Both the position numbers and the translations under genes were made by a program. Source: a virus. Taken from it: a stretch of DNA of 38,338 nt. The DNA is taken from IMG/VR virus record IMGVR_UViG_3300048927_000415, positions 1 to 38,338 of that record; one strand, written 5' to 3'. A model generated the notes under the pieces. It was not told where the DNA came from. It searched no databases and saw only the letters and a list, made by a program, of their open reading frames with translations. This document shows positions 236 through 38,267 of this stretch, piece after piece (the first letter of the stretch is position 1; every line of letters starts with the position of its first letter).

Positions 236-312
236 TGGTGCACCCAACAGGATTCGAACCTGTGGCCTTCGGATTAGGAATCCGACGCTCTATCCTGCTG
301 AGCTATGGGCGC
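236..312 (-). tRNA. tRNA-Arg(CCU), left chimera at attL, with a G3:U70 pair
   Basis: A full 77-nt cloverleaf with encoded CCA (TGG at 236-238 on the + strand). The acceptor is GCGCCCA against TGGGTGC, the anticodon stem TCGGA/TCCGA with loop TTCCTAA (anticodon CCU), and the T stem ACAGG/CCTGT. The 3' half lies in host DNA and the 5' half inside the prophage, so this is one of two recombinant products of integration. The third acceptor pair is G3:U70. The original host gene, rebuilt from the right 5' half and left 3' half, would have A3:U70 and a perfect seven-pair acceptor. A73, A20, C35 and U36 are present. Expression would depend on a phage-side promoter. Confidence 0.93.
272..309. repeat. 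attL core (38-bp direct repeat, left copy)
   Basis: Identical to 38227-38264. It covers tRNA positions from acceptor nucleotide 4 to the 3' side of the anticodon stem. The flanking bases differ (g271 versus a38226, c310 versus t38265), which sets the limits of identity. Crossover in this core exchanges the 3' half of the tRNA and also changes acceptor position 3. Confidence 0.93.
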
Positions 313-10837: not shown

Positions 10838-10838
10838 G

Positions 10839-18315: not shown

Positions 18316-18338
18316 GCCGCTGGCTTGTTCGGCGGGCG
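18311..18338 (+). terminator. terminator-like hairpin between the H and V operons
   Basis: CGCCCGCC (18311-18318) and GGCGGGCG (18331-18338) form a perfect 8-bp stem with a 12-nt loop, followed by TTGGCATTG. It could end the J-I-H transcript just upstream of the V promoter. It overlaps the right arm of the Ogr-like site. The T-tract is poor, so termination is tentative. Confidence 0.45.
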
Positions 18339-18355
18339 TTGGCATTGTGGGCTGC

Positions 18356-18913
18356 ATGCGCACGCCCGAAGATAGTGAAACCGACGCGGACAATCTGGTC
18401 CGCCTTGGCACCGTCGCGTCAGTCGATCTTGCGGCCGCCCGCTGCACCGTATCCCTTGCCGATGGCGTGGACACGCCGCCCGTTCGCTGGATGGAAAGCC
18501 GCATGGGCGCAGTGCGCATCTGGTCACCACCAAGCGTAGGCGAGCAGGTGATGTTGATCTGCCCTGCCGGTGAGATCAGCAGCGGCATCGCCCTGCGCGG
18601 CATCCCGTCTGATGCCTTCCCGGTGCCGACCAACGCGCCAGATGTCACCCATATCGAATTCCCTGACGGTGCGGCCATCAGCTATGACCATGCTGCCCAC
18701 GCGCTGCTGGTGACGCTTCCCGAAGGCGGCACGGCCACGCTGAACGTCCCCAGCGGCGTATTCATCAACGGCCCGGTCGAGGTGAACGGCGATGTCATGA
18801 TCACCGGCACCGCGACGGCCAGCGAAGATGTGATCGGCGGCGGCAAGAGCCTCAAGAGCCACAAGCACAGCGGCGTGCAGGCGGGCGGCGCGCAGACAGG
18901 CGGGCCGGTATGA
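18356..18913 (+). CDS. V: baseplate spike protein V (P2 gpV family)
   Basis: 185 aa; gpV is the membrane-piercing tail spike. Family signatures: VASVDLAAARCTVSL, WWAP-like IWSPPSVGEQVMLICPAGE, and the C-terminal SHKHSGVQAGGAQTGGPV that builds the HxH metal-binding tip (residues His-Lys-His visible). ATG 18356 is preferred over GTG 18347; neither has a clear ribosome site. In P2, V precedes J; here it follows the fibre genes. Confidence 0.92.
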   Translation: MRTPEDSETDADNLVRLGTVASVDLAAARCTVSLADGVDTPPVRWMESRMGAVRIWSPPSVGEQVMLICPAGEISSGIALRGIPSDAFPVPTNAPDVTHIEFPDGAAISYDHAAHALLVTLPEGGTATLNVPSGVFINGPVEVNGDVMITGTATASEDVIGGGKSLKSHKHSGVQAGGAQTGGPV

Positions 18914-19257
18914 TGGGCATGTCCGCAGCCACCGGCAAAAGGCTGGAGGGCGACGATCACCTGGCGCAGTCGGTCGGCGACATCCTGACCACGCCGCTCG
19001 GCACCCGCCCGATGCGCCGGGATTATGGATCGCTGCTGCCCGAACTGATCGACCGCCCCCTGAACGCAGCCACGCGCCTGCTGTGCGCGATGGCAACGGC
19101 AATCGCGATCGCGCGCTGGGAACCGCGGCTGTCCGTCCGCAAGGTGCAGCTGGAAGGTTCCTTTGCCGGCGGAGAGGCCACCATCATCGTCACCGGCGTC
19201 CGAACCGACCAGCCCGACCCCAACGCCCTCACCCGCCTGACCATCCCGATCCGTTAA
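18910..19257 (+). CDS. W: baseplate protein W (P2 gpW, gp25-like lysozyme fold)
   Basis: 115 aa, P2 gpW length. Signatures: SVGDILTTPLGTRPMRRDYGSLLPELID and IARWEPRLSVRKVQL, shared with the gp25 family that starts sheath assembly. ATG 18910 overlaps the V stop (ATGA); ATG 18913 and 18919 are alternatives. Confidence 0.93.
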   Translation: MMGMSAATGKRLEGDDHLAQSVGDILTTPLGTRPMRRDYGSLLPELIDRPLNAATRLLCAMATAIAIARWEPRLSVRKVQLEGSFAGGEATIIVTGVRTDQPDPNALTRLTIPIR

Positions 19258-19269
19258 CAGGAGCCAGCC

Positions 19270-20397
19270 ATGCACGGCATCAAGACCAACGTCCTCACTG
19301 TCGGCACCCGCGCCATCATGCCGGTTGCAACTGCCATCATCGGCGTCGTCTGCACGTCCACCGACGCAGATGCCGATGCCTTCCCGCTCAACAAACCCGT
19401 GCTGGTCACGAACATTCGCGCCGCGATCAGCGATGCCGGCGTGCTGGGCACGCTCAAGCCGACGCTGGAGGCGATCAGCGACCAGGCCGATGCCGTGGCG
19501 ATCGTCGTGCGCGTGGACACCGACGCCGACCCCGCCGACCAGGACGATCTTGTCGTCGGCACCGCCACCGGGGGCGCCTTCACCGGATTGCAGGCTCTAC
19601 TGGCGGCAGAGGCGCAGACGGGCGTCCGCCCGCGCATCCTTGGCGCTCCGGGCCTCGACACGCAGGAAGTGACGGCCGCGCTTGTCGTCGTCGCCAAAAA
19701 GCTGCGTGCCTTCGCCTACGCCGCAGGCATCGGCGCGGACATTGCTGCCGTCTCGACCTATGGCGAGAATTTCGGCGACAAGGAACTGATGCTGATCTGG
19801 CCAAACTGGAACAGCAGCTTCGCCGGCGATGGCGTGGCGCGAGCGATCGGCCTGCGCGCTGCGATCGATGAAGAGCAGGGCTGGCAGAAGACGATCTCCA
19901 ACGTGCCGGTGGGCGGCGTCACCGGGGTCAGCAAGGACATCCACTTCGACATTCAGGATGATTCCACCGACGCCGGCACTCTCAACGCAGCCCAGATCAC
20001 CACCCTCATCCGCTCCAGCGGCTTCCGCTACTGGGGCAACCGCACCCGGTCGGAAGAACCGCTCTGGGCCTTCGAAACTTCCGTGCGCACGTCGCAGGCG
20101 CTCCAGGATGAAATTGCCGAGGGCATCCGGTGGGCGATCGACAAGCCGCTCACCAAGATGCTGATCAAGGACATCCTCGACACCATCAATGCCCGCTTCC
20201 GCGCGCTGACGGCGCAGGGGCGCATCATCGGCGGCTCGGCCTGGTATGACCCGGCCTTGAACAGCCAGGCCGATCTGGCGGGCGGCAAGCTGACAATCGA
20301 CTATGATTTCACACCTTGCGCCCCGCTCGAAAGCCTGACGCTCAATCAGCGCCTGACCGATCGCTACTATGCGGACTTCGCTTCGCTGACGGCCTGA
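19270..20397 (+). CDS. FI: tail sheath protein (P2 gpFI family)
   Basis: 375 aa, close to P2 gpFI (396); it forms the contractile sheath. Recognisable by the early VGTRAIMPVATAIIGVVCTS, the central GASTYGENF-like VSTYGENFGDKELMLIWP, and the C-terminal ALTAQGRIIGGSAWYDP and LTLNQRLTDRYY. AGGAG lies before ATG 19270. Confidence 0.95.
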   Translation: MHGIKTNVLTVGTRAIMPVATAIIGVVCTSTDADADAFPLNKPVLVTNIRAAISDAGVLGTLKPTLEAISDQADAVAIVVRVDTDADPADQDDLVVGTATGGAFTGLQALLAAEAQTGVRPRILGAPGLDTQEVTAALVVVAKKLRAFAYAAGIGADIAAVSTYGENFGDKELMLIWPNWNSSFAGDGVARAIGLRAAIDEEQGWQKTISNVPVGGVTGVSKDIHFDIQDDSTDAGTLNAAQITTLIRSSGFRYWGNRTRSEEPLWAFETSVRTSQALQDEIAEGIRWAIDKPLTKMLIKDILDTINARFRALTAQGRIIGGSAWYDPALNSQADLAGGKLTIDYDFTPCAPLESLTLNQRLTDRYYADFASLTA

Positions 20398-20427
20398 TCC
20401 CTTCCCTGAACTTCCGGAGATTTCATC

Positions 20428-20937
20428 ATGGGCATGCCCTCCAAGCTCAAGAACATGAACACCTATCTGGATGGCGTCGGCCATCTGGGCATCATCGCAT
20501 CCTTCACCGTGCCCAAGCTGGCACTCAAGATGGAGGAATGGCGCGGCGGCGGCATGCTCGGCCCGATCATGGTTGATCAGGGTCTGGACAAGATCGAGGC
20601 CGAATTCACCATGGGCGGCCTTGTCGTGCTGGCGCTCCGTCAGTTCGGGGCCACCCAGCACGACGCGGCCCTGCTGCGCTTCGCCGGCGCCTACCAGGAC
20701 GACGGTACCGGCGCGGTGAAGGCCGCCGAATTCACCATGCGCGGCCGCTATTCCGAACTGGACTGGGGCGATGCCAAGCCCGGCGACGACACGGAGCATA
20801 AGTCGAAGATGGCCTGCTCCTATCTGCGCATCGACATCGACGGTCGCAACGAACTGGAAGTCGATCTGCTCGCCGGCGTCTTCATCGTCAATGGCATCGA
20901 CCGTTACGCGGAAATCCGCGCCGCCATCGGGGGCTGA
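20428..20937 (+). CDS. FII: tail tube protein (P2 gpFII family)
   Basis: 169 aa, P2 gpFII length (172). The inner tube polymerises inside the sheath. Visible: MGMPSKLKNMNTYLDG at the start, KMEEWRGGGMLGPI, and the end LEVDLLAGVFIVNGIDRYAEIRAAIG. CCGGAG lies upstream. A strong hairpin follows. Confidence 0.95.
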   Translation: MGMPSKLKNMNTYLDGVGHLGIIASFTVPKLALKMEEWRGGGMLGPIMVDQGLDKIEAEFTMGGLVVLALRQFGATQHDAALLRFAGAYQDDGTGAVKAAEFTMRGRYSELDWGDAKPGDDTEHKSKMACSYLRIDIDGRNELEVDLLAGVFIVNGIDRYAEIRAAIGG

Positions 20938-20951
20938 CCCCGCACCAGCTT

Positions 20952-20985
20952 CGCCCCGGCGTGAATAAGCGGGCACGCCGGGGCG
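20952..20985 (+). other. strong hairpin downstream of the tail-tube gene
   Basis: A perfect 12-bp stem: CGCCCCGGCGTG (20952-20963) and CACGCCGGGGCG (20974-20985), 10-nt loop, no T-tract. It separates the abundant sheath/tube mRNAs from the low-copy E, T, U and D genes and may act as an RNA stabiliser or partial attenuator, like the hairpin after the capsid gene. Confidence 0.65.
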
Positions 20986-21021
20986 GGGACCTGTCCGCCC
21001 GCCCGATCATAAGGAACCCGC

Positions 21022-21363
21022 ATGTCCGAACCCAGCCAGCCCAAGGCGGCCACTGTCGCCAAGATCACGCTGCTCGAACCGATCGAGCGCGAGAGCGGCC
21101 CCGTGAAAGAATTGACGCTGCGCAAGCCCCGTGCGGGTGAGATGCGCGGCCTTTCGATCAAGGACCTGATGAACGCCGAAACCAGCGCCGTCATCACGCT
21201 GACGCCGCGCATCTGCGATCCGTTCATCACCGATCAGGAAGCCGCCATGCTCTCCGCCGAAGATTTCGCCGAAGTCGCGGGAACCATCGTCGGTTTTTTT
21301 ATGAGCCCGGCCCAGAAGGCGATCTTGCAGGCGATGGCCGGGGGCGCTCCGTCGACGAACTAA
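21022..21363 (+). CDS. E: tail assembly protein E (P2 gpE family), carries frameshift site
   Basis: 113 aa. In P2, E and the frameshift product E+E' chaperone the tape measure. Signatures: TLRKPRAGEMRGLSIKDLM and ITDQEAAMLSAEDFAE. A seven-T run at 21294-21300 lies as T TTT TTT in the zero frame (codons Phe92-Phe93), ideal for -1 slippage; the -1 frame stays open through E'. Confidence 0.93.
   Translation: MSEPSQPKAATVAKITLLEPIERESGPVKELTLRKPRAGEMRGLSIKDLMNAETSAVITLTPRICDPFITDQEAAMLSAEDFAEVAGTIVGFFMSPAQKAILQAMAGGAPSTN
21294..21300 (+). promoter_or_regulatory. -1 translational frameshift site (T7) for the E+E' fusion
   Basis: T TTT TTT is a classic X XXY YYZ heptamer. After a -1 slip, translation reads 21 codons beginning YEPGPEGDLAG and continues in frame into MADIAAIFQW of E' with no stop, giving a product of about 155 aa (93 + 21 + 41). 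P2 uses a T6G slippery run at the same place in its E gene. Confidence 0.8.
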
Positions 21364-21488
21364 TGGCGGACATAGCGGCCATCTTCCAATGGCCGCTGTC
21401 CGAGATGGTGGGAATGGACCTCACTGAACTGATCCGCTGGCGTGAATTGGCCGTGGAACGCTGGAACCGCATGCAGGGGCAGGAATAA
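21363..21488 (+). CDS. E': tail protein E' (P2 GpE family), 41-aa frame
   Basis: ATG 21363 overlaps the E stop (TAATG), and its own TAA overlaps the T start by one base. The sequence MADIAAIFQWPLSEM and LTELIRWRELAVERW are the GpE family signature. In P2 this frame is made mainly as the C-terminal part of E+E' after -1 frameshifting, so independent initiation at this ATG may be minor. Confidence 0.88.
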   Translation: MADIAAIFQWPLSEMVGMDLTELIRWRELAVERWNRMQGQE

Positions 21489-23686
21489 TGGCCGACAACA
21501 AGCTCAACCTGCTGGTGCAATTCTCGCCGCTCGACAAGCTGTCGGGCGCGATGCGCAACATCATCGGGCTGGGCAGGTCCGGAGGCCAGGTGCTGGGGCA
21601 GATGCGCCGCACCGCCCGCGATCTGGACGGCGAACTAAAGGAAGTGCGCCGGCAGATGGCCCGCTCCACCGGCAACATCACCCAGCTGGTCGATCGCGAA
21701 CGCGATCTGGAGGCTCAGGTTGCGCAGGCAAACCGCCAGCTGGAGCGGCAGAAGTCACTTCTGGCCTTTCAGGGGAGGGTTGGCCGCATCAGCGCGCGTG
21801 GCGAGCAGATGCGCAGCGACGGCCAGTCCAATGTCGGCACCGGAACCGCAGGGATGCTGGCGATCGGCGTGGCGCTGAAAGGCGGGGTGGAATTTGATGG
21901 AGTGATGGCCGACATCGGCATCAAGCTGGGGATCAATGAGCGCCTGACTGCCACGCTCGCCCAGCAAATCCTCACCGCCGCCAAGAACAGCAACCAGCTG
22001 CCGTCGACCATGCAGGCCGCCGCCGACACGCTCGCGTCAGTCGGGCTGACGGCCAAGGAAATCCCGGCGATGCTGGGCGACATCGGCAAGGTCGCCACGG
22101 CCTATAACGCCCTGCCCGAAGACTTGGCGGGCGCAGCATCGGCGTCGATCAAGAATTTGGGCGTGGAAGCGAACCAGACCGGAAAGGCGCTGGCGTTGAT
22201 GGCCGTGGCGGGCAAGGCAGGCAAGTTCGAGATCAAGGATATGGCTGCCCAGTTCCCGCAGCTGGCGGCGACGGCAGCGAGCCTCGGCCAGAAGGGCTTG
22301 GGCGCGGTCGCCGACCTGTCCGCCGCATCACAGTTCGTCGCCGAAGGCGTGGGCGGCGACATGTCCACCGCCGCGAACAACCTCAACAACCTGCTGGCCA
22401 AGATCAACACCGAGGATGTGCGCAAGAACTTCAAGGAGATGGGAATCGACCTGCCGGCGGCGATGAAGGCGGCCTATGCGCAGGGCAAGACGCCGATTGA
22501 GGCTATCGCCGAACTGACGAAGAAGGCGCTGGGCGGGAACATGGAAAATCTCGCGCTGCTGTTCGGCGACATGCAGGCGCAGGACGCCCTCAAGCAGCTG
22601 GTGCCCAAGCTCGACGCCTACCGCGCGTTGAGGGCCGACATCCAGAAACAGACCGGGCAGGTCGAGGATGATTTCGCGCGCAAGTCCGCGACGGCGCAAG
22701 CCGGACTGCTCGCGCTGATGGGGGACGCGCAGGCCATCGGTGTGACGATCGGCAGCACGGTCCTGCCCAACCTGGTCGAATTCACCGGCTACCTGCGCAC
22801 GGGGGCCGACTGGCTTAACCGCTTCGCCCAGCAGCACCCCTTGCTTGTCAAATATCTGGTGATGGGTGCCGCTGCGACGGCCACGTTCAAGATCGGGCTG
22901 GGCGTTCTCCAGTTCGGCTTCGGCGGCATGCTGGGCATGTTTTCCAAGGCGCTCCCGCTGTTGAACGTCGCTCGCATCGCCTTCCTCTTCCTCGGTCGCG
23001 GCGTGATGCAGGCCGGCATGATGATGCTGGCGAACCCGCTGGTGCTGGCGATCGTGGCGATCGGCGCGGCCGTGGGCACGCTTGCTTATCTCGTCTATGC
23101 GAATTGGGGGAAAATCAGCGGCGCATTCACCACCGGCTTCAACTATGTGAAGGGTCTGCTTGCTGCTGCGCCCGCATGGATGCGCTCGCTCGGCTCGATG
23201 ATGATGCAAGGGCTTCTCGCCGCCCTCAATCCCATGCTTCTCGCCAACCGGCTGCTGTCGATCGCTCGCACGGGAATCACGGCTTTCAAGCAGTTCTTCG
23301 GCATCAAGTCGCCATCCCGCCTGTTCATGGAGATGGGCGGCCACATGACCAGCGGGCTTGCCATCGGCGTCGATCGAGGCGGGAAGCAGCCTCTGCGGGC
23401 GATGAATAACCTCACGGGGCAGCTGGCGGCATCCGGCAACGGCGCGAAAGGTCCGACGCGCCTTGCCGAGCCATCGCCCAATCCTATCACGGCTCCCGGA
23501 CGGACCATGGCACGGGGAGCCTCGGCGCGGCGGGAACCGGGGGCGGGCATGTCCGCCGCGCCGATCACCATCCAGATTTACCAGCAGCCCGGCGAAAGCG
23601 CCGACACGCTGGCAAATCGCGTGATGCAGATGCTGGAGGCGAAACAGCGCACGGCGCGCCTGTCCAGCTATCGCGATGACTTCTGA
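21488..23686 (+). CDS. T: tail tape measure protein (P2 gpT family)
   Basis: 732 aa, shorter than P2 gpT (815), implying a slightly shorter tail. An N-terminal coiled coil covers about 40-90 (RRTARDLDGELKEVRRQM, RERDLEAQVAQANRQLERQ). A hydrophobic central region (about 455-540) contains FLFLGRGVMQAGMMMLANPL, and the conserved IKSPSRLFMEMGGHM is near residue 615. ATG 21488 overlaps the E' stop. Confidence 0.95.
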   Translation: MADNKLNLLVQFSPLDKLSGAMRNIIGLGRSGGQVLGQMRRTARDLDGELKEVRRQMARSTGNITQLVDRERDLEAQVAQANRQLERQKSLLAFQGRVGRISARGEQMRSDGQSNVGTGTAGMLAIGVALKGGVEFDGVMADIGIKLGINERLTATLAQQILTAAKNSNQLPSTMQAAADTLASVGLTAKEIPAMLGDIGKVATAYNALPEDLAGAASASIKNLGVEANQTGKALALMAVAGKAGKFEIKDMAAQFPQLAATAASLGQKGLGAVADLSAASQFVAEGVGGDMSTAANNLNNLLAKINTEDVRKNFKEMGIDLPAAMKAAYAQGKTPIEAIAELTKKALGGNMENLALLFGDMQAQDALKQLVPKLDAYRALRADIQKQTGQVEDDFARKSATAQAGLLALMGDAQAIGVTIGSTVLPNLVEFTGYLRTGADWLNRFAQQHPLLVKYLVMGAAATATFKIGLGVLQFGFGGMLGMFSKALPLLNVARIAFLFLGRGVMQAGMMMLANPLVLAIVAIGAAVGTLAYLVYANWGKISGAFTTGFNYVKGLLAAAPAWMRSLGSMMMQGLLAALNPMLLANRLLSIARTGITAFKQFFGIKSPSRLFMEMGGHMTSGLAIGVDRGGKQPLRAMNNLTGQLAASGNGAKGPTRLAEPSPNPITAPGRTMARGASARREPGAGMSAAPITIQIYQQPGESADTLANRVMQMLEAKQRTARLSSYRDDF

Positions 23687-23701
23687 CGGAGGACCTGGCT
23701 G

Positions 23702-24076
23702 ATGCTCGCCGCTCTGGGCATGTTCATTTTCGACACCGACAGCGCGCTGTTCGATGAACTGTCGCGCCGCAGGTCATGGCGGCACGGCCGAACGGAGCGT
23801 TTCGGCGCGCGGGCGGCGAGCCAGTTCCTCGGGCCGGGACAGGATCAGGTCACGCTTTCGGGCAAGTTGATCCCCGAACTGGCCGGCTCCTATTCGTCGA
23901 TCGAAAAGCTGGTGGAGATGGCAGACACCGGCGAGGCCTACCCGCTGGCAGATGGACTGGGCAACATCCTCGGCTCATTCACCATCGAAACGATCGACGA
24001 ACAGCACAGCAACCTCATCGACACGGGGCGCGCGCGGACGATCGACTTCAGCATCGATCTGGAACGGGTGGATTGA
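23702..24076 (+). CDS. U: tail terminator-type protein U (P2 gpU family)
   Basis: 124 aa. Signatures: MLAALGMFIFDTDSALFDELSRRRSWRH, GPGQDQVTLSGKLIPEL and SFTIETIDEQHSNLID. GGAGG lies upstream of ATG 23702. The stop overlaps the D start (TGATG). Confidence 0.93.
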   Translation: MLAALGMFIFDTDSALFDELSRRRSWRHGRTERFGARAASQFLGPGQDQVTLSGKLIPELAGSYSSIEKLVEMADTGEAYPLADGLGNILGSFTIETIDEQHSNLIDTGRARTIDFSIDLERVD

Positions 24077-25113
24077 TGGCGACGGCGAACGGAAGGAAGG
24101 GCGATCAGGCCTATGTGCAGCCGCGCGCCGCATGGTCGGCCGTGCTGGATGGAAAGGACCTTGCCGACAAGCTGGCACCGCGGCTCATCAGCCTGCGATT
24201 GACGGAGAAGCGGGGGGAAAGCAGCGACGAACTGGAGATCGTGCTGCATGACCATGACGGCAAGCTGGCGCTGCCGAAGGAAGGGGCACGCCTGACCATC
24301 GCGCTAGGGTGGGAACGCGGGAGCGGCGTCACCGTAGGGCTGGTCGGCAAGGGCAGCTTTGTCGTGGATGAACTCAGCTGGGAGGGACCGCCGGACAAGG
24401 TGACGATCCGCGCGCGCTCCGCCGACCTCCAGCAGGGCTACCGCACCCGCAAGAGCCGCGTCTGGAACGGAAAAACCATCGGGCAGATCATCGACCAGGT
24501 GGCTGCCGATAATGGCCTGACGCCGCGTTGCCATGCGGACCTGCGCAGCAAGGTGGTCACGGCAATCGAGCAGTCCAACAAATCCGACATGTCGTTCGTC
24601 CGCGATCTGGGGCGGCGCTATGACGCGGTCGCCACGGTGAAGGACAAATGCCTGATCTTCTCTCCCGTCGATGCCGACACCACGGCGACCGGCAAGGCCA
24701 TCCCCTCGATCGAGATCACGCGCGGCAAGGGGGACAGCTACAGCTATCGCCGCGCCGAGCGCGACCGTGGCAACGACGGCGCGGAGGCCGACTGGTATGA
24801 TCAGGGGCAGGCGAAGCGGAAGACCGCCAGCCATGGCGGTTCGCGGCGCAAGAAGCTGAAACGTGTCTATGCCAGCGAGAGCGATGCCAAGGCGGCGTCG
24901 AAGGCGGAATCAAACCGCATCGCTCGCGCGGCCGCCACACTCCAGATGAACCTTGCCTACGGCATCGCCGATCTCGCGCCTGGCATGCGCGCGACGGCCA
25001 AAGGGTTCAAGACCGAGATCGACGCGCGCAAATGGCGCGTGGCGTCGGTCGATCACACCATGGACGGCGACGGCGGGTTCCGCACCCAGATGGAGATGGA
25101 GGCAGCGCCCTAA
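24076..25113 (+). CDS. D: tail protein D (P2 gpD family, baseplate hub)
   Basis: 345 aa. gpD forms the hub between spike and tube. Signatures: LISLRLTEKRGESSDELEI, LGWERGSGVTVGLVGKGSFVVDE, RTRKSRVWNGKTIGQIIDQVA and the C-terminal RKWRVASVDHTMDGDGGFRT. Last tail gene. It converges on a leftward operon with the two stop codons overlapping, leaving no room for a terminator. Confidence 0.93.
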   Translation: MATANGRKGDQAYVQPRAAWSAVLDGKDLADKLAPRLISLRLTEKRGESSDELEIVLHDHDGKLALPKEGARLTIALGWERGSGVTVGLVGKGSFVVDELSWEGPPDKVTIRARSADLQQGYRTRKSRVWNGKTIGQIIDQVAADNGLTPRCHADLRSKVVTAIEQSNKSDMSFVRDLGRRYDAVATVKDKCLIFSPVDADTTATGKAIPSIEITRGKGDSYSYRRAERDRGNDGAEADWYDQGQAKRKTASHGGSRRKKLKRVYASESDAKAASKAESNRIARAAATLQMNLAYGIADLAPGMRATAKGFKTEIDARKWRVASVDHTMDGDGGFRTQMEMEAAP

Positions 25114-25643
25114 GCGGCTACTTTTGGCGCGGGCGGCAGCTTTTCCCAGATGACGCCATCTTTGAACATGACGTGTAACTCCAGTCGGAGTTGTTCAAAG
25201 TCTGGATGATCTTTGCCTACACCTTGAGCAACAAGGCCTTTGCAAAGGGCGATATGCGCATGAGCCTCATGCTTATTGCCAGCTTGATCGCATTCGCATT
25301 CATCCACGACGCTGAGTGCGCGCTCCGACCCTATTTTCATAGCACGCAGGTCGCGTGCGGCTATGGCGCATAAGGCGAAGAGGGACTGTCCAGGAATTAC
25401 GTCTAAGCGAGATATGAGCCGGTCACAGGAAATTCCCTCCGGCTCAATACGCCAAACTGAAAAATTTCCGGATAGCAAATCAGGCTTGGGGATGATCGCG
25501 GATTTGACGAGGCGTGTCCGCGCATTACCGCTTCGCGGGTCAAAAGCCCCACGAACAATCGTTTCGTCATCGTCTATGACGCCCAGCGAAATTGGGTCTT
25601 GCTGCACCAATTCTCGCGGGCAGCCTGCGCTGCACCCCGTCAC
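25110..25643 (-). CDS. third gene of unknown operon (177 aa)
   Basis: GTG 25643 overlaps the preceding stop (GTGA), so it is co-translated. Visible parts: an acidic N-terminal region VIDDDETIVRGAF, a central FSVWRIE strand, and CECDQAGNKHEAHAHIAL near residue 115-135 with clustered Cys and His. No family is named with confidence. It lies in the P2 position after D, a common site for lysogenic-conversion cargo. Confidence 0.7.
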   Translation of the reverse strand: MTGCSAGCPRELVQQDPISLGVIDDDETIVRGAFDPRSGNARTRLVKSAIIPKPDLLSGNFSVWRIEPEGISCDRLISRLDVIPGQSLFALCAIAARDLRAMKIGSERALSVVDECECDQAGNKHEAHAHIALCKGLVAQGVGKDHPDFEQLRLELHVMFKDGVIWEKLPPAPKVAA

Positions 25644-26362
25644 GCTATCGAGCTTTTAACTTCGTCAATCGAGAGCAGCTCGCTAAGCTTGTTCGCGTCT
25701 CTAATCGCCAATTCACAGGGGAAGCTTGCCGAGCGCGGAACCATGGTGCCGATCACTCGGCCATTGCCATTGATGGTCAAAGCAACGACACGCTGATCGC
25801 CTTCCCACCGCAAGGCGATCGAACCATCATCATCGACCTCGACTTCAGGCTGGCGCACACTCGCGCTGAATGACTGAGCTAAAATCTGGAGGTCGTTCTT
25901 CACATACGCGTTCGGAGCCTGCGACCCCTCACCGTTCCATCCGTCTTCGAGATCAGCGATTTCACGAAGAATTTGGGCGAAATGTGCCGGGGCGGTGACA
26001 CCCAAGCGGTCCCCGCTAGCCCACGCAGCAACCCAGTTCGATAGACCGCTCATGTCCTCCGAAGACCCGACACTGACCAAATCCACAACTGGCTGTTCAA
26101 ACAGATCGTAGGCGAAATAGGTTGTATGTTCGTTAACAAACGGATGATCAAATGCCGAGGTGGCGGACGCAGGCGCGCCATAGGCCAACGTAGCGGCGAG
26201 CAAGGGCATGCGCTTCCAGATGCGAGCCATCTTGGGCCGATTCAATTCGAGATTCGTCTTGGCGGCTTCGACGGCCAAGGCAGCCGAATTCACCGCGTTG
26301 GCCGCCGCAGATGGCAGCGCAGGGACAACTGAACTGATGCAATTAGGCTGCAACATAGTCAT
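25640..26362 (-). CDS. second gene of unknown operon (240 aa, GWNG-type domain)
   Basis: ATG 26362 (or 26356) is chosen because it overlaps the end of the first gene by about 20 bp; an upstream ATG at 26398 is less likely. A moderately hydrophobic segment lies at about 50-70 (MPLLAATLAYGAPASATSA). The C-terminal half contains LEDGWNGEGSQAPN, then VEVDDDGSIALRWEGDQRVVALTI, a pattern I have seen in small hypothetical proteins that precede a partner gene like the next one. Function unknown. Confidence 0.7.
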   Translation of the reverse strand: MTMLQPNCISSVVPALPSAAANAVNSAALAVEAAKTNLELNRPKMARIWKRMPLLAATLAYGAPASATSAFDHPFVNEHTTYFAYDLFEQPVVDLVSVGSSEDMSGLSNWVAAWASGDRLGVTAPAHFAQILREIADLEDGWNGEGSQAPNAYVKNDLQILAQSFSASVRQPEVEVDDDGSIALRWEGDQRVVALTINGNGRVIGTMVPRSASFPCELAIRDANKLSELLSIDEVKSSIA

Positions 26363-27080
26363 AGCCACCAGACATAATCTGCTCAACCTCGGCTGCAAGG
26401 GCGTTTACGATGTTCGTCGCCTTATTCTGCTCGAAATCGACAACAGCCGGGGCCGTATTGACGTCGATCATAACGCCCATCGCATGCGAGGTTTGGACCA
26501 ACGGACTGCCCTGGCCGGTCGATGCGTCCAGATGGAGCGTAACCATCTGCAAGAGCTGAGTTTGCCAGCGACATAGCCTGTTGATCTGATGGCCGATTGC
26601 AGCATCGATTTTGGGGACGTTCACTTGCAGGGCGAGGTCCGTCCCGCCGTTCGGCACATTGATCCCGCCCGCCAGCTCCTTGAAGCGCTTGACCGCAGCA
26701 TCCTGATCAGCAGCTTCCTCGATCAGATTTGCTACAATCGCAAGTCGCTGGGCTGGCTGAAATGCCAAGAATTGATGCGCGTAGGCCACCAGCGTGCGTA
26801 AGGCCGCCTGGACGTCACCAATCAAAGGGGGGGTGTTGGACGGCGCGTCGGATGACGTGAGGATCACGTCGAAGCGACCAGGCATCGCTCCGACCATGAC
26901 ATTGAAATTCCCGATCATTGCCGACGCATTAGACTGCACCTGCGGCGCCCCAGCGGGAGCTTGCTGATAATTCTGCGGGCTGGAATTGAACAGCTTCAAC
27001 CACGGCTGCAGCGCGTCGGGCTGACCTGGCTTAGGTGCCGTAAACAGCACAAACTGCAGCGACTGCGCAGACCAAGTCAT
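26343..27080 (-). CDS. first gene of unknown operon (245 aa)
   Basis: ATG 27080 follows a G-rich ribosome site (GGGGGAATGG). The protein begins MTWSAQSLQFVLFTAPKPG and later has RLAIVANLIEEAADQDAAVKRF, GTDLALQVNVP and INRLCRWQTQLLQM, giving the look of a mixed alpha/beta cytosolic protein that may resemble TIGR04255-type proteins (uncertain). The three-gene operon has its own upstream gap (27081-27204) and visibly lower GC than the tail genes, suggesting transferred cargo. Confidence 0.7.
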   Translation of the reverse strand: MTWSAQSLQFVLFTAPKPGQPDALQPWLKLFNSSPQNYQQAPAGAPQVQSNASAMIGNFNVMVGAMPGRFDVILTSSDAPSNTPPLIGDVQAALRTLVAYAHQFLAFQPAQRLAIVANLIEEAADQDAAVKRFKELAGGINVPNGGTDLALQVNVPKIDAAIGHQINRLCRWQTQLLQMVTLHLDASTGQGSPLVQTSHAMGVMIDVNTAPAVVDFEQNKATNIVNALAAEVEQIMSGGYDYVAA

Positions 27081-27591: not shown

Positions 27592-27616
27592 CGTTCCCCC
27601 TTCAATAAACCTCAAT

Positions 27617-27976
27617 TTACCGGCACTCGCGCGCCAAGCGCCCGCCGTCATCCCATCGTCCAACATAGACCGCGCGCCCGCGCGCCAGCTGCGCGCAAGC
27701 GAGATTAATGCCACCGGCATAGATCTGCGCCACGACGCGGCCATAATGGTCGAATTTGACCGGCTCGACGCGCATTTGCCCCGTCATGAGTGAGGCAAGG
27801 CTGCGCTGCGAGGCGCGGCCGTCGCCCTGAACGCACCGACGGTGCGGAGGGCAGCCGTGTAACTCAGGCGCGTCGATCCCCAACAGCCTATAGCGCTGGC
27901 TGCCGCACCTGATCGTGTCTCCGTCGCTCGCATGGCAGGCGCTCGCCGCAATGGCGAGTATCACAGACAGGATCAT
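27617..27976 (-). CDS. secreted thermonuclease-like (SNase) nuclease
   Basis: 119 aa with a signal peptide at 1-16 (MILSVILAIAASACHA). The nuclease core shows DGDTIR (18-23), RLLGIDAPE (30-38; catalytic-type R30, D35 and E38) and DHYGR (77-80 with R80), matching the SNase active site. It starts three bases after the repressor stop, so lysogens should express it. A periplasmic nuclease could degrade incoming phage or plasmid DNA (superinfection exclusion) or be a general conversion trait. Confidence 0.85.
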   Translation of the reverse strand: MILSVILAIAASACHASDGDTIRCGSQRYRLLGIDAPELHGCPPHRRCVQGDGRASQRSLASLMTGQMRVEPVKFDHYGRVVAQIYAGGINLACAQLARGRAVYVGRWDDGGRLARECR

Positions 27977-27979
27977 AGA

Positions 27980-28642
27980 TCAGGTGCGCCGGATCACGCC
28001 GACGACGCGGCCGAACACGAACATCTCGCCGTCATGGGCAGTTTCTTCGCGCACGTTGGGATTGTCAGCCATGAGCTTGTAGCTGCCATCAGGCATCGCA
28101 CGAACGCGCTTGATGGTCCCCAAGCCGCCATAGGACAGCGCCCATATCGCCTCTTGCTCATCAATAGCTCGGCGGGACCGATCTATGATGATGATGTCCC
28201 GATCATTGATCGTCGGATACATGGAATCGCCGCGAGGACGCGCAATGGTTAGATGTGAGACAGGGGCTGCCGTGAACTGGCGTACCCACTCCTCTGGCAT
28301 CCAACGTGCAATCGTGTTGACGGGAGCCTCGTCGAGATAGGCTGCGCCCATGCCTATGCCCAAATCGATCTCTTCGAGCCGGATCAAGCCCATCTGCTCG
28401 GCTATGTCCTCAGGCGTCGGGGGAATGAACGCTCCCGCATCCGGATCATCAGTTCCGCCGGTCAAATACGCCGGAGTGGTCCGCAAAAACTGAGCAATAA
28501 CGTGGAGGTGCGATGAGGACGTCGATTCCCCCCGCGCCAGCTTCCCGATGGTCTGCGGACTGACGCCAACCTTCCGGGCAAGGCTTGATTGGCTTTCCCC
28601 GACCGCCTCCATCCGGGAAATAAGACGCTCAGGGATGATCAT
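27980..28642 (-). CDS. phage repressor, HTH + S24 peptidase (CI/LexA-like)
   Basis: 220 aa. Maintains lysogeny by binding operators between itself and the Cro-like gene. HTH at about 18-40 (SQSSLARKVGVSPQTIGKL); S24 domain with Ser140 (RGDSMYPT) and Lys178 (GTIKRVR), the LexA-type dyad. An Ala-Gly pair at 69-70 in the linker is a possible cleavage site, so RecA-dependent induction is plausible. This differs from the small non-cleaved P2 C repressor. ATG 28642 is 10 bp from operator 1. Confidence 0.92.
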   Translation of the reverse strand: MIIPERLISRMEAVGESQSSLARKVGVSPQTIGKLARGESTSSSHLHVIAQFLRTTPAYLTGGTDDPDAGAFIPPTPEDIAEQMGLIRLEEIDLGIGMGAAYLDEAPVNTIARWMPEEWVRQFTAAPVSHLTIARPRGDSMYPTINDRDIIIIDRSRRAIDEQEAIWALSYGGLGTIKRVRAMPDGSYKLMADNPNVREETAHDGEMFVFGRVVGVIRRT

Positions 28643-28651
28643 GCGCGCACC

Positions 28652-28717
28652 CTACATCCATGGTTGTAGATATCCATGGAATTATTCTTCTTGACCATCT
28701 TGGAACTTTGGTTGTAG
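28652..28717. promoter_or_regulatory. repressor/Cro operator region with divergent promoters
   Basis: Operator 1, 28652-28669, is CTACA-N8-TGTAG (CTACATCCATGGTTGTAG). The half-site TGGTTGTAG recurs at 28709-28717, 48 bp away, overlapping the likely -10 of the early promoter whose -35 is TTGACC at 28691. TCCATGG also repeats at 28657 and 28672. This arrangement fits a repressor blocking the early operon and controlling its own gene. Further operators may exist. Confidence 0.7.
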
Positions 28718-28726
28718 CTAAGCTGC

Positions 28727-29068
28727 ATGGAACAGGAAATTACCCCATATCAGGCGCTTGTTTCTGCAACTGAAGTTGCAGGCTCCCAGTCCGCGATGGC
28801 ACGTATCTGCGAAGTTACGCAGACCGCTGTCTGGAAATGGTTGCAGTCTTCCAAGCGCCTGCCCGCCGAATATGTCCTTCGCGTCGAAGCAGCGACGGGC
28901 GTTCCCCGTCACCTGCTCCGTCCCGACATCTACCCGCTCGATCTTCCCCCAATTCCTGCCTCCGCCATTGCGGAACCAACCCCGCTCTGTGGCCCGATCT
29001 TATCCGGGCACATGGTGGACCGACAGGGTAAAGCGCAGCGGCTTTTGGACAAAAGGGCTGCGCAATGA
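28727..29068 (+). CDS. Cro-like regulator (YdaS-type HTH)
   Basis: 113 aa, first early gene. HTH in about 16-42 (VAGSQSAMARICEVTQTAVW) followed by KWLQSSKRLPAEYVLRVEAATG, the YdaS/Cro pattern of starting at the lysis-lysogeny switch. It should repress the CI-like operon and allow lytic growth. The C-terminus is Pro-rich, then basic. Its stop overlaps the next start (ATGA). Confidence 0.85.
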   Translation: MEQEITPYQALVSATEVAGSQSAMARICEVTQTAVWKWLQSSKRLPAEYVLRVEAATGVPRHLLRPDIYPLDLPPIPASAIAEPTPLCGPILSGHMVDRQGKAQRLLDKRAAQ

Positions 29069-29217
29069 ACGGCTTGGCTCTCACCATGAACATGATCTTC
29101 CGGCGCGCCATCGCCTCGCTGGCGGACGACGCCCAGTTCTCCAAAAGCGAAACGGCTTGGCTTCTGATGCCTTTCGCTGGCTGGATCGCCCTGATTATCG
29201 TGGGAGCGCCGCAGTGA
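29065..29217 (+). CDS. small membrane protein, 50 aa
   Basis: ATG 29065 overlaps the Cro-like stop, and its TGA overlaps the next GTG start, so it is firmly inside the operon. The protein has one membrane helix near the C-terminus (AWLLMPFAGWIALIIVG) preceded by SKSETAWL. Function unknown; superinfection exclusion or control of the switch is possible. Confidence 0.65.
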   Translation: MNGLALTMNMIFRRAIASLADDAQFSKSETAWLLMPFAGWIALIIVGAPQ

Positions 29218-29657
29218 AGCCGCGCCGCGCCCTCACCCCTTATCGCGCTCTGCATGAAATCGCGGACCTGCTCGGTTGGGACGGCTGCGCCTCAGTTCTG
29301 GGCAAGTCCGAAAGCCTGGTGCGCAAATGGGCCGATCCCGACACCGAGCGGGAGATCAGCTATCAGGCCGCCATCCGGCTCGACGCCGCTTACATGCGCG
29401 CTGGCGGCAAGAGCGCGCCGTTGTTCGAGTGTTACGCCGCGCGGCTCGACCTGTCGGCCGATGAAGACGAGGACCATGCCGGCACCATGGAGGCCGTCAG
29501 CGCCGCCGCAAAAGAGGCGGGCGAAGCCGTCGCAGCTGCGATCGATTGCCTCGGACGCACCAATGATCTGGCAGCCCGCAATCGTGCCGTGATCGAGACT
29601 GAGGAAAGCATAGGCGCGCTGCAACGGCTGCGGCAGCGCCTGAAACGGAGCGGTTGA
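29214..29657 (+). CDS. CII-like phage regulator (CP76-type)
   Basis: 147 aa from GTG 29214, overlapping the preceding stop. An N-terminal HTH-like region (YRALHEIADLLGWDGCASVL then KSESLVRKWADPD) matches phage CP76/CII-type regulators of P2-like phages, with a C-terminal helical, Ala/Glu-rich half. It probably takes part in the lysis-lysogeny decision or early gene control. Role from family resemblance. Confidence 0.75.
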   Translation: MKPRRALTPYRALHEIADLLGWDGCASVLGKSESLVRKWADPDTEREISYQAAIRLDAAYMRAGGKSAPLFECYAARLDLSADEDEDHAGTMEAVSAAAKEAGEAVAAAIDCLGRTNDLAARNRAVIETEESIGALQRLRQRLKRSG

Positions 29658-29661
29658 ACGA

Positions 29662-30012
29662 GTGACAGACGCGGGGGCGGGAAACATGGGATATGAAACG
29701 AAATTTCCTGATCAGGACGGCAAGCGCAGCCTTGGCTTGCGCTGCCCACATTGTCAGGCGCCGGCGACCTGCCGCACCAGCAAGGGCGTCACGTCGATCT
29801 TCCGCGAGCTTTTCTACATCTGCAGCAATGTCATGTGCGGACACACGTTCAAGGCATCGCTGACCTACGAATATGGGCTGTCGCCAAGCGCCTGCCCTGA
29901 TCCGACCCTGAACCTGCCGATGCGTCCGGTCGATCGCGCCGTCGCCATTGCGCAGGCCACCCAGCAACCAGGCGCAGGCCCGCCCAGCAAACAGCCCGGC
30001 CTCTTCGACTGA
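29662..30012 (+). CDS. ogr: Ogr/Delta-like late transcription activator
   Basis: 116 aa from GTG 29662 (ATG 29686 also possible). Zinc-binding cysteines C28-x2-C31 and C54-x4-C59 with RTSKGVT between and YICSNVMCGHTF around the second pair match the P2 Ogr/P4 Delta family, which recruits RNA polymerase to late promoters through the alpha subunit. P2 has ogr after D; here it sits in the early operon. The three GTTGT-N13-ACAAC sites are its probable targets. Confidence 0.88.
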   Translation: MTDAGAGNMGYETKFPDQDGKRSLGLRCPHCQAPATCRTSKGVTSIFRELFYICSNVMCGHTFKASLTYEYGLSPSACPDPTLNLPMRPVDRAVAIAQATQQPGAGPPSKQPGLFD

Positions 30013-30083
30013 TCCCGCTCACATTGCCGTTTTGCGCGCTCGATTTCGAGCCACGCCCTCTTTTTGCCTGAAAGACCTGACCC

Positions 30084-32753
30084 TTGCCTATTCGCGACGA
30101 CATCAGAAACGAGGTTATCAAGCGCGTGACGGCCGAATTCGGCTTCATGGGCAAGGGTGACTGGCTGCAAAAGGGCAAGTGCCCCCAATGCGGCAAGAAG
30201 GAGCTTTTCACCCGCTCCGATAATCCGATCATTCTTCGGTGCGGTCGTGAGAACCGCTGCGGTTGGGAAGGCGCGACCAAGGATCTGTATCCCGACATTT
30301 TCGATGTCTGGTCGAAGCGATTCCAGCCCACGGAAACGAACCCGACCGCATCGGCGGACGCCTATCTCAGCCACGCGCGCGGCCTCGATCTGGCCGGCAT
30401 GCGCGGCTGCTACACGCAGGAAAACTTCATCGACCGCAGCAGCGGCCACAACAGCGCAACGGTCCGCTTCTCTCTGCCCGGCGGCTCATGGTGGGAACGG
30501 CTGATCGACCAGCCCGGCAGGTTCGAGAAGAAAGCCAATTTCGCGTGGGGCAAGCCGTGGCGCGGTCAGCTGTGGACGGCACCCGACCAGACGCTGGAGG
30601 CCATCGCCCGCGCCGATCGGCTGTTCATCGCAGAAGGCATCTTCGACGCATGGTCGCTTCGACAGGCCGGCCATTTCGCCGGATCGGCCATGTCGTCCAA
30701 CAATTACCCGGAAATCTTCCTGGCCGAATTGCGGCGGGTGATGGCCGCGCAGGAAATCGCGGCAGGGCCGGAACTGGTCTTCGCCTTCGATGTGGGCCGC
30801 GCCGGCACCGAATATAGCCGCAAGTTCGTGAAGCGTGCCCGGCAGGAAGGCTGGCGCGCTACCGCCGCCCAGCCCCGACCCGAGGGGGAGAGCGAGAAGC
30901 TCGACTGGAACGACCTGCTGCAACGCGAACGGCTCGAACTGCAGCATATCGTCGAATATTTGTGGAACGGCGAAGTGCTGCTCGCCGACAGCGCGGCGGA
31001 AAAGGCCTTCCTGCTCTATGACCGCAAGGGCTGGCCCAGCTTCTCCTTCGTCTATGACAATCGCACCTGGTGGGCGCATTTCAACGAAGCGAAGATCGCC
31101 GAAACGATGGCGGCGGACGGCATCACCCGCAAAGCCGCCGCCAAGCTGTGCGCGGACATCAGCGAAATCGCCAACTGCGCCTTCCGCGTCCTGTATTTCC
31201 AGCGCGACGACACGATCGACGAAAGCCAATATTATCTGCGCGTCGATACCCCGAGCGACCGCCCGCCGGCCAAGGCCGCCTTCTCGCCCGCTTCGCTGTC
31301 TGCCAGCGCCGAATTCAAGAAGCGGCTGCTGGGCGTTGCCCCCGGCGCGCAATTTACCGGCACCACCGGCCAGTTGGACAAGCTGATCGCGCTCCAGACG
31401 AGCGGCATCAAGACCGTCGAAACGCTGGATTTCACCGGCTACAGCATCGACCACGGCGCATATGTCCTGGGTGAGATCGCCGTAAAGGGCGGTCGGGTCG
31501 AGCGGGTCAACGACGAAGACTATTTCGACTTTGGCAAGATGTCGCTCAAGCTGCGCTCGCGCGAGCGCATCCTGTCGATCAGCTACGACGCCGACCAGCT
31601 GGACACTTCATGGGTCGCCGACATTTGGACGGCCTACGGCCCTAACGGCATCGTGACGCTAACATTCTGGTTCCTGTCGCTGTTCGCCGAGCAGGTCCGC
31701 AAATCGCAGGGTTCGCTCTTCTTCCTCGAAATGACCGGCGACCCCGGCACCGGCAAATCCACCCTAATCGAGTTCATGTGGCGGACCCTCGGCCGCGACG
31801 GATATGAAGGGTTCGACCCTCAGAAATCGACCAGCGCGGGCATCGCGCGCAACCTGTCGAAGGTTGGCAACCTGCCCATCGTCCTGATCGAGGGCGACCG
31901 GCAGGACGATGGCAAGGGCAGCCACGCCAAGCGCTTCGAGTGGGAGGAACTAAAAACCGCCTTCAACGGCCGCTCGCCCCGCACACGCGGCGTCAAGTCC
32001 GGCGGCAATGAAACCTACGAGCCGCCGATGCGCGGCGCGGTCGCCATATCGCAGAACGCGCCCGTCAACGCCTCTGCGGCGGTGCTGGAGCGTATCGTCC
32101 AGCTGACCTTCGACAAATCCTACTTCGGCGCGCCAGGCAAGGCGGCAGCGGAGCGCATCAAAGCCCGGAAGGTCGATGTGCTGTCCGGCTTCATCATCCA
32201 CGCGATCCGCCGCGAAGACGCCTTCCTCAAGACCTTCTTCGCCAAATTCCGCGAGCATGAAGCCCGGATGATCAAACAGGGTCAGGTCGGCAACGACCGT
32301 CTGATCCTCAACCATTGCCAGCTGCTCGGCGCGCTGGAGGCGCTGCACGAATGGCTCCAGCTTCCCGGCTCAGTTTACCATGAGACGGTGGATTTCATCT
32401 ACCGCGCGGCGGTCAAGCGGCGCGAGGCGCTGTCGGCCGATCATGTCCACGTCCAGCGCTTCTGGGAACTGGTCGATTATCTGGAATCGGCGGAAACGAA
32501 CCTCACGGAAAACCCGATCAACCGGCACCGGAAGGACGACGCCTTCTATGCGATCTCGCTCCCCCATTTCGAAGAACGCTGCCGCGCTCGTGGCCTGACG
32601 CACCCGCCGATCGACGATCTCAAGCGCGTCCTGCCCACGTCCCGGAGCCGCCGTTTCGTCGGCAACAAGCCAATCAACGGCGTCGGCGACAAGCATGTCC
32701 GCTGCTGGGTCTTCGAAAAGCCCGACCACCCCCGCCAACAGGAAAGGCACTGA
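30084..32753 (+). CDS. TOPRIM primase-helicase
   Basis: 889 aa, TTG start 30084. It should open and prime the phage origin. N-terminal zinc ribbon C33, C36, C53, C59; TOPRIM region about 175-250 with E184 (FIAEGIFDA) and FDVG at 235-238, where a DxD would be normal; helicase domain with Walker A GDPGTGKS (552-559) and Walker B-like VLIEGD near 600, then AVAISQNAPVNASAAVLERI. This resembles P4-alpha-type replication proteins, not the rolling-circle A protein of P2, so replication is probably theta. Confidence 0.88.
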   Translation: MPIRDDIRNEVIKRVTAEFGFMGKGDWLQKGKCPQCGKKELFTRSDNPIILRCGRENRCGWEGATKDLYPDIFDVWSKRFQPTETNPTASADAYLSHARGLDLAGMRGCYTQENFIDRSSGHNSATVRFSLPGGSWWERLIDQPGRFEKKANFAWGKPWRGQLWTAPDQTLEAIARADRLFIAEGIFDAWSLRQAGHFAGSAMSSNNYPEIFLAELRRVMAAQEIAAGPELVFAFDVGRAGTEYSRKFVKRARQEGWRATAAQPRPEGESEKLDWNDLLQRERLELQHIVEYLWNGEVLLADSAAEKAFLLYDRKGWPSFSFVYDNRTWWAHFNEAKIAETMAADGITRKAAAKLCADISEIANCAFRVLYFQRDDTIDESQYYLRVDTPSDRPPAKAAFSPASLSASAEFKKRLLGVAPGAQFTGTTGQLDKLIALQTSGIKTVETLDFTGYSIDHGAYVLGEIAVKGGRVERVNDEDYFDFGKMSLKLRSRERILSISYDADQLDTSWVADIWTAYGPNGIVTLTFWFLSLFAEQVRKSQGSLFFLEMTGDPGTGKSTLIEFMWRTLGRDGYEGFDPQKSTSAGIARNLSKVGNLPIVLIEGDRQDDGKGSHAKRFEWEELKTAFNGRSPRTRGVKSGGNETYEPPMRGAVAISQNAPVNASAAVLERIVQLTFDKSYFGAPGKAAAERIKARKVDVLSGFIIHAIRREDAFLKTFFAKFREHEARMIKQGQVGNDRLILNHCQLLGALEALHEWLQLPGSVYHETVDFIYRAAVKRREALSADHVHVQRFWELVDYLESAETNLTENPINRHRKDDAFYAISLPHFEERCRARGLTHPPIDDLKRVLPTSRSRRFVGNKPINGVGDKHVRCWVFEKPDHPRQQERH

Positions 32754-32754
32754 A

Positions 32755-32904
32755 ATGCCCACCCCTTCGACGCGCCTGCACACCATCGCCTGCACCTGTG
32801 ATCGGTGCCGCCCGCTCACCCCGCGCCAGCAGATGCTGGTTCGCGCCTCGCTGGGCGCGATCGGCATGCTGACCGGCGCTCTCATTCCCTTTTTCTTCGG
32901 TTGA
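32755..32904 (+). CDS. small CxCxxC membrane protein, 49 aa
   Basis: ATG 32755 just after the primase stop, with AGGAAAG upstream. CTCDRC near residues 13-18 may bind a metal; the C-terminus is one membrane helix (SLGAIGMLTGALIPFFFG). No family recognised. Confidence 0.6.
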   Translation: MPTPSTRLHTIACTCDRCRPLTPRQQMLVRASLGAIGMLTGALIPFFFG

Positions 32905-36868: not shown

Positions 36869-37158
36869 CGGCGACCGATGCCACCGGGCTGCTTAAAGAG
36901 GCTGATGCGGCCAAATGGCTCGGCATCAGTCCTCGGACCTTGCGCAAGCTGCGCCATGACGGCCAGCTTCATTATATCTTGATCCGCACCGCGATACGCT
37001 ACAGCCTTTCAGATCTGCAATCCTACGTCGAGCGCGCCCGCCAATGTCCGTCTATCAAAGAGAAGGCTCCCCCTACTGGTGGTATAGCATCACCCTCCCC
37101 GACGGTCGCCGACTTCGAGGCAGCACGAAGAAGACGGCAAAGCGGGAAGCCAGGCTAG
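36865..37158 (+). CDS. excisionase/HTH protein (MerR-like)
   Basis: 97 aa. LLKEADAAKWLGISPRTLRKL then IRTAIRYSLSDLQSYVER is the HTH_17/excisionase motif. Likely the Cox/Xis equivalent controlling integrase direction. ATG 36865 overlaps the previous stop, and the last 115 bp overlap the integrase start in another frame, an arrangement that couples the two. Confidence 0.8.
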   Translation: MTATDATGLLKEADAAKWLGISPRTLRKLRHDGQLHYILIRTAIRYSLSDLQSYVERARQCPSIKEKAPPTGGIASPSPTVADFEAARRRRQSGKPG

Positions 37159-38156
37159 TCGCCCTTGAAAAGGAGCAAACGGCTCTCGCCGCGCCGCGGC
37201 GCGATCAGGCGTGGCGGTTGCGGGAAGTGCTGGGCACCTATTGGACCGATCACGCGCAAAATCTGCAAACCGCGTCCGTCATGTTCTTCCACTATGAGTT
37301 GCTGTCGGAATTCCTTGGCCCTGATCTCCCGATCGCCGATCTGACTTCATCCCTGTTGCTCGACTATCGGGCGGCGCGGCGCGGCGGCAGCATAAAGGCT
37401 ACCGCCGACATGCTCGATCGCAGCAGCCCGTGGCGCAAACGCGCGCTCGACGACAAGGGGTTCGTCCGCGCCGTGTCGCCGCAAACGGTGAACCGTGATT
37501 TCGCTCACCTGCAGGCGGCGATGAACTGGGCGAAGGACATGCACGGCAAACAGATGCCGTCGATCAACTGGAGGGGGTTGAAGGCGAAGGAAGCGCCGTT
37601 CCGAAATCGCTTTGCGAGCGGCGATGAATTCGCAACCTTGCTGACGACCGCTCACCCGGCAATGCGCGACATCATCTTGTGCGCGGTCACAACCGGCCTG
37701 CGGCGCGGCAACATCTTCTCGATGGAGTGGCACCAGGTCAACCTGCGGGCCTCCACCATCACCTTGCCCAAGCTGAAAGGCGGCAAGCCCCACACGGTGC
37801 AGATCGCGCCTGCTCTGCGCGCCGCGCTGGCGCGAACGAAGCCTGATCAGCGCAAAGGGCCGGTCTTCGACACGACGAACTATAAGAGACGGTGGCATGC
37901 GGCCGTGAAGGCCGCTGGCCTGGTCGATTTCAAATTCCATGACCTTCGCCATACCTTCGCCAGCTGGGCGCGGATCAATGGCGCGGACCTCCTCGACATC
38001 TGCGAGGCGCTTGCCCACTCCAGCGTGTCGGTCACGCAACGCTATGCGCACGTTAAGCCAGAGAGCAAAATGACGGCCTTCGACCGCGTTGCTGAAGCCT
38101 TCGCGTCACAATCCGCGTCACAATCCGCCAGACTGCGGAAGAAAAAGACGGCATAG
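37044..38156 (+). CDS. int: tyrosine integrase
   Basis: 370 aa. Catalyses recombination between attP and the tRNA-Arg attB. Catalytic residues are all visible: R220 (TGLRRGNI), K245, H299-x2-R302 (HDLRHT), H325 (LAHSS) and Y334 (TQRYAHV). An N-terminal arm-binding domain begins with YQREGSPYWWYSITLPDGRR. It ends 70 bp from the attR core, and its last codons (SQSASQSA) contain the right arm-type sites. Confidence 0.95.
   Translation: MSVYQREGSPYWWYSITLPDGRRLRGSTKKTAKREARLVALEKEQTALAAPRRDQAWRLREVLGTYWTDHAQNLQTASVMFFHYELLSEFLGPDLPIADLTSSLLLDYRAARRGGSIKATADMLDRSSPWRKRALDDKGFVRAVSPQTVNRDFAHLQAAMNWAKDMHGKQMPSINWRGLKAKEAPFRNRFASGDEFATLLTTAHPAMRDIILCAVTTGLRRGNIFSMEWHQVNLRASTITLPKLKGGKPHTVQIAPALRAALARTKPDQRKGPVFDTTNYKRRWHAAVKAAGLVDFKFHDLRHTFASWARINGADLLDICEALAHSSVSVTQRYAHVKPESKMTAFDRVAEAFASQSASQSARLRKKKTA
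38105..38125. promoter_or_regulatory. candidate integrase arm-type sites, right arm
   Basis: GTCACAATC at 38105 and 38117, 12 bp apart, inside the integrase C-terminal codons and 101 bp from the att core. They match the left-arm pair at 422/434 in sequence, spacing and orientation. Inferred. Confidence 0.5.
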
Positions 38157-38190: not shown

Positions 38191-38267
38191 TGGTGCACCC
38201 GGCGCGATTCGAACGCGCGACCTCCAGATTAGGAATCCGACGCTCTATCCTGCTGAGCTATGGGTGC
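38191..38267 (-). tRNA. tRNA-Arg(CCU), right chimera (host 5' half, phage 3' half)
   Basis: 77 nt with encoded CCA. Acceptor GCACCCA/CGGGTGC has A3:U70 but an A7-C66 mismatch; the anticodon stem TCGGA/TCTGG contains two wobble pairs (U27:G43 and G29:U41); the T stem GCGCG/CGCGC is perfect. This copy keeps the host promoter and is the phage-restored gene. It is slightly weaker in predicted pairing than the rebuilt original. Confidence 0.92.
38227..38264. repeat. attR core (38-bp direct repeat, right copy)
   Basis: Identical to 272-309; see attL. Host DNA continues to the right of it. Confidence 0.93.

Follow-up and report, generated by a model that had tools for sequence, protein, structure and literature searches.

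PDC-M32 is an unpublished phage-defence candidate in PADLOC, and in one paper PADLOC lists the PDC-M32A/B pair in a Sinorhizobium meliloti prophage (PMC12429752). CmdTAC is a proven three-part toxin-antitoxin-chaperone defence module with an ADP-ribosyltransferase (ART) toxin (PMC11618068). For P2-like phages, the published cargo hotspot is the old-tin locus between gpA and gpQ (PMC9122126). TIGR04255 is an NCBIfam family with no assigned function, and no paper on it was found in a literature coverage lying mostly outside subscription journals.

The three-gene operon A-B-C, found here in a P2-like prophage, resembles each of these systems in part. PDC-M32A ends in a GWNG-type domain like that of protein B, and B matches it in PADLOC with an E of 3.1e-7, covering only profile positions 257-337 of 375. 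However, the first 250 positions of M32A are matched by neither A nor B, so that neither is an M32A-type protein over most of the 375 positions, and C has no match to M32B. Since the PDC entries are unpublished candidates (PMC11811056), the shared GWNG domain serves only as a hint towards defence. Gene A of the related cassettes L016 and L009 belongs to TIGR04255 (E 4e-11 and 1e-9, over the NCBIfam cut-off), but A of the prophage studied here does not. The likeness to CmdTAC lies in the three genes and in the possible ART-like fold of C; family searches detected no SecB-like chaperone (no Pfam family for A, only families below the cut-off for B) and no CmdT relative in the operon. The two systems are alike only in the logic proposed for them. 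Like the old-tin locus, the operon occupies a small locus for exchangeable cargo that is flanked by conserved P2-type genes. The initial annotation had stated that P2-like phages carry conversion or defence cargo at such module borders. A cargo site does lie at this border, whereas the hotspot in print is gpA/gpQ (PMC9122126) and this cargo sits after gene D, before nuclease and repressor genes.

The window, the whole stretch of DNA analysed (38,338 nt), is a complete P2-like prophage, as judged from gene recognition and from attachment cores at both ends. The genes recognised encode terminase, portal, sheath, tail fibre, gene D, an S24 repressor, a Toprim primase and a tyrosine integrase. Table 1 gives the features that frame the operon.

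Table 1. Positions of the operon, its cargo site and the prophage landmarks in the window
Feature	Position	Strand	Remarks
Attachment core, left copy (38 bp)	272..309		in tRNA-Arg(CCT)
Gene D, tail/baseplate hub; left border of cargo site	24073..25113	+	PF05954, E 5e-12
Gene C, proposed effector	25110..25643	-	177 aa, GTG start
Gene B, GWNG-domain protein	25640..26362	-	240 aa from ATG; start codon uncertain
Gene A (window type A')	26343..27080	-	245 aa, ATG start
Exchanged segment	25114..27614		missing from L002, with L002:9041-10028 in place; blastn blocks
Bacterial PH-domain gene in exchanged segment	27205..27591	-	PF08000, E 2.5e-30
SNase-like gene; right border of cargo site	27617..27976	-	PF00565, E 1e-7
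S24/HTH repressor	27980..28642	-	PF00717, E 7e-14; PF01381
Tyrosine integrase	37044..38156	+	PF00589, E 1e-23
Attachment core, right copy (38 bp)	38227..38264		in tRNA-Arg(CCT); identical to left copy

The ORF calls confirm what the initial annotation had described, three leftward frames with overlaps of 20 bp (A/B) and 4 bp (B/C) that converge on gene D, the stop of C overlapping that of D. The start of B may be the ATG at 26362 or an upstream TTG at 26398. The operon is also less GC-rich than its neighbours, as had been noticed. The GC content is 57.6% for A, 56.3% for B and 54.5% for C versus 62.5% for the window, which places the operon about 6 points below its surroundings, and the GC3 of the three genes is 54-68% versus 83% for gene D. 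A promoter scan found none, with 1.3 expected in shuffles. Profiles were built without the window proteins and run on the 446 stop-to-stop frames of at least 50 aa in the window. The B profile found window B (E 1.5e-10) and no other frame, the C profile found window C (E 8.2e-7; next frame 0.91), and a single-sequence HMM of the A' protein of L019 found window A (E 6.7e-14; next frame 0.14). Since profiles from other records alone pick exactly these frames of the 446, A, B and C are not chance ORFs.

The content of the cargo site differs in a near-identical phage, L002, which was found by a scan with gene D as query. L002 matches the window by blastn at 94.3% over 18117-25112 and at 91.6% over 27615-33985, and its gene D is 97% identical. 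Where the window has the operon, L002 carries a single unrelated gene, which lies on the other strand (L002:9093-9905). Therefore the operon is cargo. Since the same gene order occurs in several other viruses and the near-identical phage has different content, A-B-C looks like an exchangeable accessory module of temperate phages. The PH-domain gene (GC 52.7%) is missing from L002 as well and is taken as a separate cargo gene, because it was not seen beside other A-B-C cassettes. The 270-aa product of the L002 gene has no Pfam or PADLOC match; it carries an RNEFAHN segment, which presumably recalls HEPN-type proteins.

Relatives of the cassette were collected by scanning IMG/VR with a degenerate DNA pattern for GW[ND]G[ED][GDE][SA]xAP. 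The scan returned 10 records, which collapse to 8 lineages at 60% identity and are all virus records, the collection being viral. C adjoins B in 10 of 10 (ORF reading and profile check), in agreement with the arrangement given in the initial annotation, a GWNG protein preceding a small partner gene, which holds for this subfamily of B. A gene of 238-289 aa precedes B in all eight records that extend beyond B; the records of L023 and L024 end at B, and the upstream gene of L018 is cut by the record start. The three genes proposed as a unit thus do co-occur, with A or A' before the constant B-C core. As a control, a broader GWDG pattern was used, and the 35 loci that it alone returned were searched. 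A B-type domain was present at E below 1e-6 in 7 of them, and neither C nor A was found in any of the 35. The absence of C from these loci indicates that C belongs to the GWNG subfamily of B and not to the domain at large, so the linkage of B and C is specific as far as the compared records go. Further GWDG-domain proteins of phages, accompanied by neither C nor A, were seen in L037, L031, L044, L042, L046, L052 and L034, and the GWDG-domain proteins appear to form a wider family with no assigned function.

In all 11 cases (the window and 10 relatives) the cassette has a lower GC content than the surrounding sequence in the record, by 6.3 to 13.7 points. An integrase lies beside the cassette in six of the 10 records, directly in five and with one gene between in L021. 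The integrase passes the Pfam cut-off in L018, L025 and L027 and is below it in L021, L023 and L026. The cassette comes after the tape-measure gene in L020, and in several records A reaches the record end. Cytosine-DNA-methyltransferase-like genes occur near the cassette in four of the 10 records (L021:6716-8542, L023:5004-6821, L026:7760-9133 and L027:5157-6071); the two that were scanned both match. An enrichment of the cassette in defence islands, which the initial annotation had offered as a check, was not borne out in the virus records: when 10 proteins from neighbouring genes or from the same site were compared with PADLOC, eight matched nothing, and the other two were those cytosine-methyltransferase-like proteins.

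Single-protein scans of IMG/VR with A, B and C returned no relatives. A scan of the genome collection found neither A nor gene D. By tblastn A, B and C were absent from plasmids, and A and C from phage records. Searches of the plasmids with L013 C, L014 C and L019 A', and of the phage records with L016 A, had no match either. Nothing in print on the cassette was found in literature on TIGR04255 and PDC-M32 or among the papers listed for the GWDG/GWNG motif, within a coverage that mostly leaves aside subscription journals. A-B-C is therefore a real, recurrent and apparently undescribed prophage cassette.

Two types of first gene were found. In seven of the eight records the upstream genes are of one family; L019 is the exception, its upstream gene (L019:6386-7126) being a homologue of window A along the full length (blastp E 3e-12). 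A scan of four of the seven matched TIGR04255 each time, twice over the cut-off and twice weakly (E 0.005 and 0.0015). Window A had 0 families in NCBIfam and so no TIGR04255 match, it has no family in Pfam or PHROGs and no PADLOC match, and a profile of the seven TIGR04255-type A proteins had no match among the 446 window frames. A homology between A' and TIGR04255 was considered and dropped, since the hhalign E is 0.29 and the order of elements is similar by eye only. The TIGR04255-type gene is therefore not constant in the cassette. Since seven records carry it and the window and L019 carry the unrelated-looking A', the first gene appears exchangeable, and A and A' are two unrelated or unrecognisably diverged genes.

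Protein B has the GWNG motif noticed earlier at residues 141-144. It aligns with seven IMG/VR B proteins at an hhalign E of 2.2e-9. No credible family was found for B in Pfam, NCBIfam or PHROGs, the weak hits being below the Pfam cut-off. The model of B has a pLDDT of 66, with the GWNG domain mostly above 88. Its fold matches (longin, profilin, EagT6/SciW and beta-lactamase) were set aside as tied common arrangements at Z 5 to 6. A match of B to 5zza (E 0.046) was judged to be chance, since 5zza has no counterpart of the GWNG motif where the two align. When the profiles of the A, B, C and A' alignments were scanned against PDB sequences, no match rose above chance level.

Protein C aligns with seven other C proteins at an hhalign E of 1.5e-5 and with L013 C at a blastp E of 3e-7. 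Six residues (E27, R31, P36, S62, R65 and H128) are invariant among 11 C proteins. The His/Cys-rich segment that had been pointed out is present. Of this stretch only H128 is invariant and the cysteines are not conserved, so there is no conserved metal site, and this idea was dropped. C has no family in Pfam, NCBIfam or PHROGs, and PADLOC had no match for window C (E up to 5) or for the eight of the 10 other C proteins that were scanned. An AlphaFold2 model of C, made on 11 sequences, has a mean pLDDT of 81 and a pTM of 0.75. The top rows of a VIA comparison of this model are 9ldi (Z 6.3 over 93 residues at 3.0 A, a value in the range that the tool flags as a common arrangement), 9ld4 (Z 6.1) and 2cb6 (Z 3.4), followed by 2.4. 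The match at Z 6.3 is to KptA and that at Z 3.4 to an ART toxin domain, and we take all three entries to share the ART fold. Foldseek found no match (best E 0.62 in the PDB and 0.40 in BFVD), and the C profile aligns with eight KptA proteins at an hhalign E of 0.21, no better than with unrelated alignments. R31 is located in the first strand of the model, presumably where many ART enzymes put the catalytic arginine. The model suggests that C weakly resembles ART-fold proteins, without sequence support.

As a rule, cargo of this type in a prophage benefits the lysogen, and P2-like phages are known for loci that carry it. Our preferred explanation, a tentative one, is that A-B-C is a mobile prophage cassette that protects the lysogen, with C as the effector. 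In the window the cassette lies between gene D, a late gene, and the genes for nuclease and repressor. It would be expressed in the lysogen and act there against superinfection, perhaps with the architecture of a toxin-antitoxin module. C is likely the enzymatic effector, possibly with an ART-like fold, because of its conserved polar residues, its place as last gene and the fold comparison. B may hold or deliver C as an obligate partner, and A, which differs between subtypes, is likely a sensor or control subunit. Defence is the most likely, though putative, role of the cassette. A more far-reaching version seems unlikely to us: a family of three-part immune cassettes, previously undescribed and carried by prophages, in which the core of GWNG adaptor (B) and new ART-like, NAD-using effector (C) is constant and the first gene, either TIGR04255 or the unrelated A', can be exchanged and sets the infection signal that is sensed. 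The recurrence places the GWNG domain and the TIGR04255 family in one shared setting, with C as a definite partner gene, and makes the PADLOC candidate PDC-M32 part of a wider set. If C is an ART-like effector, the three small genes could serve to test a new class of prophage immunity.

The same compact overlapping operon with a putative enzyme last could instead be an addiction module (toxin-antitoxin or toxin-antitoxin-chaperone) that stabilises the prophage without anti-phage action, with C as the toxin and B and/or A as the antitoxin. The possible, weakly ART-like fold of C fits this, and CmdTAC is an example that a three-gene ART module of such logic exists (PMC11618068). A and B, however, have no antitoxin-like or SecB-like family match, and this alternative is rather unlikely. 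Lysogenic-conversion genes acting at the cell envelope, by surface exclusion or fitness, with B exported, are less probable again. Some B proteins begin with hydrophobic stretches (equalled by 24 of 500 shuffles for L018 B and 50 of 500 for L013 B), and in window B a stretch near residues 45-70, rich in Ala and positively charged, runs up to AxA-like residues and by eye could be a signal peptide. However, the best hydrophobic stretch of window B is matched by 235 of 500 shuffles and is likewise unremarkable in most B proteins, and B extends upstream of the putative signal.

The operon adjoins gene D and lies within the phage, which could point to a core function in tail assembly or late regulation. 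This is largely refuted and scarcely credible, since L002, 94% identical there, has an unrelated gene in its place; the low GC and the strand opposite to the tail genes also argue against it. Cargo that has degenerated and lost its present function would agree with the high divergence, window B and C having 14-29% identity to their relatives. But the window and the relatives alike have A, B and C as intact frames, with the conserved residues present, so this too is very improbable.

Elsewhere in the window, a second GC dip (54-57%) at 9500-11500 contains ORFs 9863-10837 and 10839-11456 and is possibly another cargo site. The region around the left tRNA-Arg (1-1160) has a GC content of 55% and no ORF of at least 90 aa. 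In the tail-fibre gene (16143-16885) several short segments match more than once between the window phage and L002, which suggests internal repeats.
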